Of a stretch of DNA of 64,000 nucleotides, positions 31,209 through 34,377 are shown piece after piece (positions within the stretch are counted from its first letter, which is position 1; every line of letters begins with the position of its first letter). This DNA is from an uncultured Phocaeicola sp. (lineage in GTDB: Bacteria; Bacteroidota; Bacteroidia; Bacteroidales; Bacteroidaceae). The stretch lies in NCBI GenBank assembly GCA_947581855.1, contig CANPVZ010000012.1, positions 1 through 64,000 on the forward strand, given 5' to 3'. Position numbers and translations under genes: made by a program. The notes below the pieces were generated by a model. The model saw nothing but the letters and a program-made list of their open reading frames with translations. It did not search any database and was not told where the DNA came from.

Positions 31209-31772
31209 TTATGCCGCCAAAAGAGAGGCTGGTAGCAGAAAGAGTAGATAGAAATGTTGCTTTAGTTTTTTTCTCAGTTTTTTATATGCCGTTTTCTTTA
31301 AAGCGTGCACGGTTCCTTCGGAGATAGCCAATTCGGCAGCTATTTCGCTGTTCTTCTTTCCGCATATACTGAGTTTTATGATACGTTTCATTTGGCTGGG
31401 AAGTTCTTCCACAGCTTTACGGACTAGCAGATAGGTTTCTTGCCGGATAATTTCGTCTTCAATTTTATTTTCAAACTCAAGAAGGCTTTCCGGAGAATAG
31501 GATTCTTCGTTGATAATCTGTTCGTGTTTCAGGTAGTTGAGGCACCGATTGCGCGTAGCTGTATAAAGGAAACTTTTTACTTTGTACAGATCGTTGAAAT
31601 CTTTTCTTCTTTCCCAATAGGTGAGAAGCACTTCTTGCGCAATATCTTTACTGGCCTCTTGATCGAAGATGTATTTATTAGCAAATATGCAAAGAATAGG
31701 GTAGTAGTCTTTGAATAATTGCTTGAATGAATTTTTATTATCATTTCTGATATCTTCGATGATTGTATTCAT
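31209..31772 (-). CDS. ECF-type RNA polymerase sigma factor
   Basis: A 187-aa sigma-70 family protein of the Bacteroidetes ECF group. Region 2 is visible (FKQLFKDYYPILCIFANKY, then DIAQEVLLTYWERR, then KSFLYTATRNRCLNYLK) and region 4 includes LPSQMKRIIKLS and the helix-turn-helix AAELAISEGTVHALKK. I chose the ATG at 31772 because a -7 box at 31805-31812 sits where a longer version would start. It lies upstream of a FecR anti-sigma gene and an STN-containing SusC, so the three form an outer-membrane signal relay that most likely switches on the SusC operon. Confidence 0.9.
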   Translation of the reverse strand: MNTIIEDIRNDNKNSFKQLFKDYYPILCIFANKYIFDQEASKDIAQEVLLTYWERRKDFNDLYKVKSFLYTATRNRCLNYLKHEQIINEESYSPESLLEFENKIEDEIIRQETYLLVRKAVEELPSQMKRIIKLSICGKKNSEIAAELAISEGTVHALKKTAYKKLRKKLKQHFYLLFLLPASLLAA

Positions 31773-31812: not shown

Positions 31813-32276
31813 ACAATATAATAATGGATTAACTGTTCTTTTTGAAAAGAAAAAGCCTCGAATCCTTCGGATATGGATATATTATGAGTCTTTATTCTGT
31901 TTAACGGAATACGTCCTTCTTTTGTTTATAAAGGATGCGTCTCTTGTGGTTGAAGACTTTGCTATTTCTTATTTTAATGAAATAGGTTTCCTTTTTCGTT
32001 CTTTGTCAAATTGAGGTAGTAAAAGTATAAAAATGTGTTGAGTAACGATAATCGAGTTAACTTTGAATGAAAGTTATAAGGTAGTTACCTTAAATCGAAA
32101 TCAGGAACACCCCGGAGTTTGCCTCTTTTAGGTTTCCTCATTTTTCGCTATATTCTTTTTTCTGTGAATAGCATTATTAGTTATTGGCGTAGCATTACTT
32201 GTGGGGAGGGATGATATTATTAATTATTCTGCGCAGCATTATTAGTTAGAATAAGGTTGAAATATGTTTACATGAT
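31813..32276. other. Gene-free region upstream of the sigma gene
   Basis: No gene is visible. A 14-base direct repeat AGCATTATTAGTTA occurs at 32170-32183 and 32235-32248, within a stretch rich in GCATTA/TTAGTTA words. No promoter can be assigned with confidence. Confidence 0.4.
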
Positions 32277-32395
32277 TTTTTTGTGCACAAACGCAAGGTA
32301 CAATTGTGCACAAATCCACTTCTCATTTGTGCACAAACGGCAACCCTATTTGTGCACATTCGAGGGTTGCGTTTGTGCACAATTCTGAAAGCATT
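32277..32395. repeat. Five palindromic TTGTGCACAA sites at exact 23-bp spacing
   Basis: TGTGCACA occurs at 32282, 32305, 32328, 32351 and 32374, each exactly 23 bases from the last. The palindrome extends to TTTGTGCACAAA in the best copies, while the 11-13 bases between sites differ. Copies 3 and 5 also form a longer inverted repeat (GTGCACAAACGGCAACCCT at 32330-32348 with AGGGTTGCGTTTGTGCAC at 32363-32380). The arrangement resembles a regulator or iteron array with sites on one face of the helix. It lies between the ECF sigma gene and the 3' end of the YgiQ gene. Confidence 0.85.
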
Positions 32396-32547
32396 TACTG
32401 TAGGGACTTTCAGAGGGGATATTTGTATGAATGGTTAGAAAATGTGTGGTAAAATATGTTGAGATAATATGTATCTTCCGTTTGCTTTCGGTAAAGCTGT
32501 GGATAAAGGTCTGTACCATACGGTTGGGATAAACTGTAAATCCCTGC

Positions 32548-34377
32548 TTATTTACGGTAAAGTCTGTCTATTAAATCAGCCCTGCCGATGCGTCGTAGTT
32601 CTGCTATGATTTTCTTCCGTTCTTCCGGTTTGTACCAAAAAAAGAATTGCCTTTGTGCCAGCTTTTCTTTGGGGGATTTGGCGGAGAATACCGGTTCCAG
32701 ACTATAAGGATGAAAACCTGTGTACCAGGCTTCCGTACTGATGGTCATCGGGGTGGGAGTAAAGTCTTGTACTTGTTCCAAATGAAAGTCCATTTGCTTG
32801 GTCAGTACTGCCAGTTCGGCCATATCCTCTTCCGTACATCCGGGATGGCTAGATATAAAATAAGGTATGAGCTGCTGATTAAGATGTTGTTCTTTGTTAA
32901 TCTTGTCAAATATCTTTTTGAACTGCTGAAACTGTTGGAACGGTGGTTTGCGCATCAAGTAAAGTACCCGGTCGCTGGTATGTTCGGGAGCTACTTTCAA
33001 TCGGCCGCTCACGTGGTTTGCAATCAGCTCTTTGGTATATTCGCGGACACTGCGGTTTACCTGCTCGTCTGCACTTTGGTGCAACAATAAATCATAGCGC
33101 ACACCACTGCCGATAAAGCTTTTCTTTATTTTAGGCAAGGCATCTACCGACTTGTAAATATCCAGTAGAGGGCGATGGTCTGTGTTCAGGTTCGGACAGA
33201 TTCTGGGGTGGATACAGGAAGGACGTTTACATTTACTGCAAATCTTCTTGTCCTTTCCACCCATGCGATACATGTTGGCGGATGGCCCTCCTAGGTCAGA
33301 TAGATATCCTTTGAAATCAGGCATTTCCGTAATTGCTTTCACTTCTTTTAGGATACTCTCCTTACTCCGGCTGACAATGAACTTACCCTGATGGGCCGAA
33401 ATAGTACAGAATGCACAGCCTCCGAAACATCCGCGGTGAATGTTTACCGAGAACTTGATCATGTCGTATGCCGGAATGCGTTTACCTTTGTATTTAGGAT
33501 GCGGCAAACGTGTGTAAGGCAGGTCGAAAGAATGGTCGAGTTCGGTTTCACTCATCGGAGGATAAGGTGGGTTTACTACTACCACCTGTCGGTCCACTTC
33601 CTGCAAGATGCGTTGCGCTTCATATTTGTTCGACTCCTCTTCGATATGGCGTACGTTTAGAGCCTGTTTTTTTTTGTCTTTCAAACATTCCTCGTGCGGG
33701 TAGAGCCATAAGTCTTCTTCACGTATTCCGAAGGGAATATTCTCTTTGCGGCAAAGAAATACGGTTTGAGGGACGTCTGTAGGAAGTTGCTTGTTTCCAG
33801 GATGTTCCAGCATCTTATGGCATAGTTCCACGATAGGTTTCTCACCCATCCCGTAGATAAGCAAGTCTGCTCCTGAATCAATCAGGATACTTTTTTTGAG
33901 TGTGTCCTGCCAATAATCGTAATGCGTAAGACGGCGCATAGACGCTTCGATACCTCCTAACACCACCGGTACATCGGGATAAAGTTCTTTCAATATACGG
34001 GTGTAAACGATAGTCGGGTATTCAGGACGCATATCATGACGCCCGTCCGGTGTATAAGCGTCTTCGGAACGGAGGCGCTTGTTGGCGGTATACTTGTTTA
34101 CCATCGAATCCATGCATCCCGGTGAAATGCCAAAGAACAGCCGCGGGCGTCCCAGTTTCTTGAAATCGCGCAAATCGTCTCTCCAGTTAGGCTGGGGCAC
34201 AATGGCCACTCGCAGACCTTCCGCTTCGAGAATGCGACCTATTACGGCTGCTCCGAAAGAAGGATGATCGACATACGCATCGGCACTGAATAGGATAACA
34301 TCCAGTGTATCCCATTTACGTAGTTCCACCTCTTTCTTAGTAGTGGGTAACCAGTCTGTGAGCTGATATTCTCGCAT
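32548..34377 (-). CDS. YgiQ family radical SAM protein
   Basis: A 609-aa cytoplasmic protein. The radical SAM cluster motif is CFGGCAFC (Cys317, Cys321, Cys324), followed by TISAHQGKFIVSRSKESIL. The N-terminal YgiQ domain is complete (DVILFSADAYVDHPSFGAAVIGRI, then RPRLFFGISPGCMDSMVN), as is the C-terminal part (HVSGRLKVAPEHTSDRVL, then YFISSHPGCTEEDM). An extra cysteine group (ICSKCKRPSCIHPRICPN) probably binds a second metal centre. The reaction of this widespread family is not established. It follows a small conserved gene by 17 bases, probably in one operon. Confidence 0.88.
   Translation of the reverse strand: MREYQLTDWLPTTKKEVELRKWDTLDVILFSADAYVDHPSFGAAVIGRILEAEGLRVAIVPQPNWRDDLRDFKKLGRPRLFFGISPGCMDSMVNKYTANKRLRSEDAYTPDGRHDMRPEYPTIVYTRILKELYPDVPVVLGGIEASMRRLTHYDYWQDTLKKSILIDSGADLLIYGMGEKPIVELCHKMLEHPGNKQLPTDVPQTVFLCRKENIPFGIREEDLWLYPHEECLKDKKKQALNVRHIEEESNKYEAQRILQEVDRQVVVVNPPYPPMSETELDHSFDLPYTRLPHPKYKGKRIPAYDMIKFSVNIHRGCFGGCAFCTISAHQGKFIVSRSKESILKEVKAITEMPDFKGYLSDLGGPSANMYRMGGKDKKICSKCKRPSCIHPRICPNLNTDHRPLLDIYKSVDALPKIKKSFIGSGVRYDLLLHQSADEQVNRSVREYTKELIANHVSGRLKVAPEHTSDRVLYLMRKPPFQQFQQFKKIFDKINKEQHLNQQLIPYFISSHPGCTEEDMAELAVLTKQMDFHLEQVQDFTPTPMTISTEAWYTGFHPYSLEPVFSAKSPKEKLAQRQFFFWYKPEERKKIIAELRRIGRADLIDRLYRK

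Follow-up and report, generated by a model that had tools for sequence, protein, structure and literature searches.

The classic analogue of palindromic repeats scattered between bacterial genes is the REP family, for which we know of no fixed helical register. Plasmid iterons and other phased operator arrays carry sites about two helical turns apart, an arrangement suited to cooperative binding on one face of the DNA. In CRISPR arrays, identical repeats alternate with unique spacers of roughly 30 bp and cas genes accompany them, and the sites of SlmA, Noc and MatP are named examples of sites that organise a chromosome.

The closest described element is BrickBuilt, a MITE of Porphyromonas gingivalis with 23-nt repeats, present in 19 intergenic copies with a leader and a tail (PMC4596501). 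In the part of its description used here, mismatch among the repeats of one element is 0 to 11%, the unit number ranges from 1 to 22.8, and the units contain conserved and less conserved positions, the latter mostly in the second half, with a mention of dyad symmetry (PMC4596501). The same part gives it IS5-type terminal inverted repeats like those of ISPg1 and ISPg9 (PMC4596501). One open-access collection of the literature yielded nothing on such arrays besides BrickBuilt.

The array studied here lies in a stretch of 64,000 nucleotides from an uncultured Phocaeicola sp., referred to as the window. Its surroundings are organised as follows.

31209 to 31772, minus strand: gene for an ECF sigma factor (TIGR02985; open reading frame and profile), start set by alignment with a relative in the congener G011
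32260 to 32273, plus strand: left A/T box AAATATGTTTACAT, consensus AaataTnTTTACAt, at a near-fixed distance to the array across copies (alignments of 16 and of 17 oriented copies)
32280 to 32383, no strand assigned: array of five palindromes (core TGTGCACA) with an exact 23-bp period and four different inner 11-bp spacers (pattern count and copy comparison)
32384 to 32414, plus strand: imperfect inverted repeat TCTGAAA...TTTCAGA, immediately 3' of the array (copy alignment and pattern search)
32415 to 32451, plus strand: linker whose length is constant while its sequence varies, A/T-rich at certain fixed positions (alignment of copies)
32452 to 32464, plus strand: right A/T box, consensus AAAAtannTnnACA, at a fixed distance to the array (alignment of copies)
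32548 to 34377, minus strand: gene for a YgiQ family radical SAM protein (TIGR03904; open reading frame and profile), 3' end towards the element

The five copies of TGTGCACA start at 32282, 32305, 32328, 32351 and 32374, and all four intervals are exactly 23 bp, as an earlier sequence-only reading of the window had proposed. The whole 64-kb window holds seven copies against 0.61 expected, a number that 0 of 100 dinucleotide shuffles attained. The extended 12-bp palindrome TTTGTGCACAAA noted in that reading is complete in copies 1 and 3 only, whereas copies 2, 4 and 5 carry ATTGTGCACAAA, TTTGTGCACATT and TTTGTGCACAAT in its place. The larger inverted repeat said to join copies 3 and 5 is real, with CGGCAACCCTA in spacer 3 pairing with TCGAGGGTTGCG in spacer 4. 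The array is located 166 bp past the 3' end of the ygiQ-type gene, and the sigma reading frame follows about 470 bp downstream. The gap free of genes, first given as 740 bases, measures 739 bp if the sigma frame starts at TTG and about 775 bp if it starts at the ATG aligned with the G011 relative. The right A/T box may belong either to the element or to its target.

A search of the whole genome (a draft assembly of 39 contigs, 88% complete) for two TTGTGCACAA separated by a free gap of 6 to 16 bp returned 35 pairs, all 35 with a 13-bp gap, equal to a period of 23 bp; the reversed control gave 0 matches. The genome search for further arrays that had been suggested with the first reading thus found 17 arrays, 15 of them with five units. 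The other two are a copy with four recognisable units and one degenerate unit (L009) and a copy with three units (L018). Distances between exact cores are 23, or 46 across a mutated unit. A looser pair scan returned 71 pairs compared with 9 in its control, and a few degenerate copies beyond the 17 may have been missed. When the 17 copies were oriented by their flanks, a common element of about 205 bp emerged, consisting of an A/T box (TTTACAT), about 8 bp, the array, the TCTGAAA...TTTCAGA inverted repeat, the linker and a second A/T box. With up to three mismatches allowed, the inverted-repeat pattern matches 14 times in the genome, each time next to an array; three copies, those of the window, L009 and L020, have diverged too far to be matched. 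We place all 17 arrays between genes, taking as spurious the reading frames of 79 to 158 aa that 10 of them overlapped in a first pass. In the window array we have one copy of a repeat element dispersed between genes, not a feature local to the sigma gene. The contrary case named at the outset, in which the units would be decaying minisatellite copies with similar spacers and no other arrays would exist, does not describe this family: more arrays exist, the unit number is nearly constant and the spacers differ.

The copies differ in what they conserve. Across 16 of them the information content is 1.94 bits per column in the cores, 1.14 in the spacers and 0.46 in the linker. On both sides, almost every outer spacer opens with a CGCAA-like word, so that the array as a whole forms a loose inverted repeat; the inner spacers are the most variable. 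Complementarity between spacers was compared with slot-controlled shuffles. It is low for S1:S4 (63 of 3000 shuffles as low) and for S2:S3 (23 of 3000), while three of the six slot pairs are unremarkable and S1-S3 shows the opposite tendency (176 of 3000 as high). In 22 elements of G011, S1:S2 complementarity is far under that of the shuffles (0 of 5000), and the other two of the three slot pairs are unremarkable. Native spacer sets also fold more weakly than slot-shuffled ones, with 6 of 300 shuffles as weak for RNA and 17 of 300 for DNA, the latter a weak result when taken alone. An avoidance of complementarity at the level of units mixes slots and is therefore partly copy ancestry. We read the spacers as being under mild selection, or purging, against long hairpins. 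The A/T modulation of the linker is position-specific (0 of 3000 rotations), with a best period of 8.75 bp that 98 of 3000 column permutations attain, and linker curvature by helically phased A/T is accordingly not claimed. A CRISPR array was considered and rejected, the period being 23 with 11-bp inner spacers, some of which are shared between arrays.

The modules were also compared between copies. Array similarity is correlated with similarity of the left box (r 0.40, p 0.003) and slightly with that of the linker (r 0.21, p 0.03), the latter as plain descent would give; against the inverted repeat 3' of the array the value is r -0.22 (p 0.93). The arrays of L010 and L011 are alike at 42 of 44 inner spacer positions, with 48% identity in the linker and 81% in the inverted repeat. 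L011 and L012 are both oriented by their flanks, yet 36 of 44 spacer positions of their arrays agree when one array is read in inverted register, where 300 null sets reached a maximum of 35. Inverted spacer matches number 66 versus 34 +/- 9.7 under a column-composition null, the largest of 200 null sets being also 66. The copies are mosaic, with one array inverted relative to its own flanks. Dispersed arrays that exchange sequence through their palindromes, by gene conversion or template switching, would fit this pattern; a recombinase could also be the source.

The search was extended to relatives, as had likewise been suggested, with a divided outcome. None of 14 congeners has the exact TGTGCACA pattern, but the same geometry with other palindromes is present in several of them. 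Among 201 genomes of the family, one other genome (G094) has a single three-unit match with one mismatch to the original pattern; the reversed control of this search led to ACACGTGT arrays, which are found at 23 bp in G013 and G004, and also matched once in G135. Samples of 200 kb apiece from four congeners contained 22-bp-period palindrome arrays built on other words, namely CATATG in G013, AAACAATATTGTTT and a CGTACG type in G011, and others in G012; the sample of G014 had two matches, with periods of 21 and 23. CATATG pairs in G013, with the gap left free between 4 and 34, number 178, all at 22 bp among the matches listed, with 0 in the reversed control. In 600 kb sampled from G011, 22 of 31 tandem matches have period 22 and none 21 or 23. 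AAAC-N6-GTTT triplets at 22 bp gave 183 overlapping matches in the whole G011 genome, with at most one mismatch, versus 34 in the reversed control (loci L068-L077 and L159-L178). In a hand-picked G011 set, 93 of 168 units are fully self-complementary and most others differ at the centre. One unit per element in G011 often has a non-palindromic centre, CACTTGTG or its reverse.

A period survey of 97 stretches from relatives (1.826 Mb, dominated by G011 and G013) returned 91 tandem matches, 50 at period 22, six at 21 and three at 23, and its first-order Markov control returned 0. These counts are lower bounds, because a similar scan with a slightly longer window detects just 12 of the 17 known arrays of the original genome. 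Of 53 arrays at period 22 or 23, 26 exceed 95% of column-permuted controls in palindromic symmetry. Nine of 20 further genomes, represented by 1.3 to 40 kb each, have a match of period 20-24, five of these at 22, and the other 11 have none. Of the 34 arrays with a period of 20-24 in the four congeners sampled, 27 lie in gaps of at least 120 bp, the rest inside a called reading frame or at an edge. The two-turn geometry is widespread but uneven among relatives. Constant phase with variable spacers, attributed from the start to selection on spacing, is repeated genome-wide and, with other palindromes, in congeners; spacing is therefore a real constraint. At larger distance, CACGTG triplets at 23 bp were found in 0 of 295 genomes of the order, the reversed control matching only the original genome. 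Hoeflea, Lachnospiraceae and two Acinetobacter have one pair each of the original pattern, with no period-23 stretch found there, and the pattern has no match in phages and none in IMG/VR viral contigs.

The likeness to BrickBuilt raises the question whether the element is a non-autonomous transposon that contains a 23-nt tandem repeat and is mobilised by the transposase of an IS acting on its terminal inverted repeats. Both share the period, the intergenic habit in tens of copies, distinct modules on the two sides and, as far as the part of the BrickBuilt description used here goes, dyad symmetry and conserved next to variable positions within the unit (PMC4596501). Some arrays in relatives (L029; G013 C3:75390) are expanded minisatellites as well. 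In contrast to the near-identical units without spacers given in that part of the description, only the palindrome is alike here, and period-23 self-identity is at best 0.63-0.70 in the 12 of 17 arrays detected by the scan, whereas BrickBuilt units differ by 0-11%. The number of units is nearly fixed at five instead of variable. The BrickBuilt terminal inverted repeat, in the form given there, was found with up to two mismatches within 200 bp of only 1 of the 17 copies, and inside the array, and the 17 copies show no signal of target duplication (mean longest shared word 5.88 within copies versus 6.11 between). A BrickBuilt-type origin is on balance unlikely, though it deserves to be taken seriously. 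BrickBuilt is set apart here by its description, and the two elements may share an origin. Mobilisation of REP/BIME-like repeats by a RAYT (Y1 transposase) would likewise account for short, palindromic, multi-copy, intergenic and species-specific repeats, the properties shared with REP, BIME and REPIN elements. PF01797, however, has no match in four of five genomes, including the original one (an 88%-complete assembly) and G011 with its 183 overlapping triplet matches, and a single match in G013. For the original genome this reading is largely refuted, and overall we give it very little credence.

A cis-regulatory operator of an ECF sigma (SusC/D-type) locus would agree with where the array lies, in a long gap on the upstream side of the sigma gene. 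This position was described correctly from the start, but a link to the sigma gene found no support. The 17 copies adjoin other genes of unrelated look (named by eye except for YgiQ and sigma), and by simple ORF rules the neighbour faces the element with its 3' end at 11 of 17 copies on the left and at 11 of 17 on the right. In G011 the ygiQ and sigma genes (sigma factor 59% identical) stand 49 bp apart with no array between them, so this locus does not carry the element throughout the genus. A ygiQ gene is present in 12 of 15 genus genomes, 11 besides the original one; in the nine of these 11 that were inspected, no TGTGCACA array lies downstream of it, and the order ygiQ-sigma is kept, by eye, only in G011. 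G005 and G006 were covered by the period scan only, which found no array and which missed 5 of the 17 known ones. An operator role is highly improbable. Slightly less so, yet still very improbable, is an action of the array by folding into a long stem, as structured RNA or as a DNA hairpin or cruciform. The palindromes and spacers 3 and 4 of the window copy can pair, and miRNA-precursor models score weakly on the array, all under their gathering scores; no Rfam family reaches its gathering score between 31000 and 33500. The weaker fold-back of native spacers argues against folding, as does the low S1:S4 and S2:S3 complementarity, and the flanking inverted repeat has no covariation beyond shuffles (one double-change pair; 241 of 500 shuffles as high). 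Chromosome-organising sites of the SlmA, Noc or MatP kind, placed by distance from origin or terminus, also have little probability. The arrays of the original draft cluster weakly (p 0.026 for pairs closer than 50 kb, p 0.048 for the length of contig occupied) and are absent from contigs C17 and beyond (p 0.010), but the chi-square p is 0.25. Against such placement, all 33 sites of one fully enumerated G011 subfamily are spread over the 3.71-Mb contig, the vicinity of the GC-skew terminus included; one G011 array is located at 1.818 Mb, in the sampled stretch L077.

Of the roles named in the sequence-only reading, a cooperative DNA-binding protein is predicted to fit best, as occupant of a phased array, and an iteron-like site fits poorly. 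The spacing of about two helical turns is shared with plasmid iterons and phased operators. In contrast to plasmid iterons, the units are palindromic, no replication gene was recognised by eye among the neighbours, and an origin-type role is unlikely because 17 copies are scattered over the chromosome. With about even confidence, we consider that the locus belongs to a mosaic element dispersed between genes, and that the helically phased array at its core consists of predicted sites for a dimeric DNA-binding protein, the protein itself being inferred. Since the palindrome centres are two helical turns apart, the five palindromes would lie on about the same face of the DNA. Each palindrome may be bound by one homodimer, and neighbouring dimers may co-assemble along the array. 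Such a protein would read mainly the palindromes and their register. The spacers would be free to change, apart from those close to the ends of the array, with complementary ones mildly selected against or purged so that no long hairpin forms. Even without function, palindromes and register would persist for some time in copies that descend from a single ancestor. Exchange between dispersed arrays through the palindromes, by gene conversion or template switching, would give rise to the mosaic copies. The specificity of the binding protein presumably turns over between repeat families, because the 22/23-bp geometry is common to congeners while the palindrome differs between families.

More tentatively, and with less than even confidence, these arrays could represent a class of chromosomal elements of Bacteroidaceae-like bacteria that is defined by geometry and not by sequence, with dyads every two helical turns (22 or 23 bp). 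The palindrome would be replaced between species, several families would coexist in a genome, each with its own fast-evolving array-binding protein, and array conversion and inversion would keep the copies mosaic. Bacterial dispersed repeats are usually defined by a conserved sequence, whereas here the sequence changes between relatives and the two-turn register stays; as many as 178 site pairs of one family in one genome, the CATATG pairs of G013, keep it among the matches listed. If true, this would point to an unknown group of array-building DNA-binding proteins, and the 119-bp fragment used as bait, together with half-turn spacing controls, would offer a handle for finding them.

A few minor observations concern individual arrays. 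The outer-spacer word CGCAAAGGTC of L010, L011 and L012 is contained in the 3' terminal inverted repeat CGCAAAGGTCTC of BrickBuilt_5, as given in the part of the description used here (PMC4596501); it lies inside the array and not at the element ends, and the match may be due to chance. G013 has a third family at 22 bp with units centred on ACGGCCGT or ACGGTCGT (L083, 4094-4267; L085, about 1949-2265). At G013 C3:75390-75549 and L029, about 1248-1555, the whole 22/23-bp unit is nearly identical over many copies, apparently as recently expanded minisatellites, and such arrays in G013 suggest that minisatellites and palindrome arrays are related phenomena. Arrays of period 21-22 with other words occur in other genera of the family (G016 L112, G017 L093, G024 L097 and L117, G034 L122), with GTACG-rich units in G034 and CTAACGTTAG-like units in G017. 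Among IMG/VR contigs (L180-L198), 16 carry CATATG triplets at 22 bp and three carry AAAC-type triplets, and these contigs may be pieces of phage or of bacterial DNA alike.
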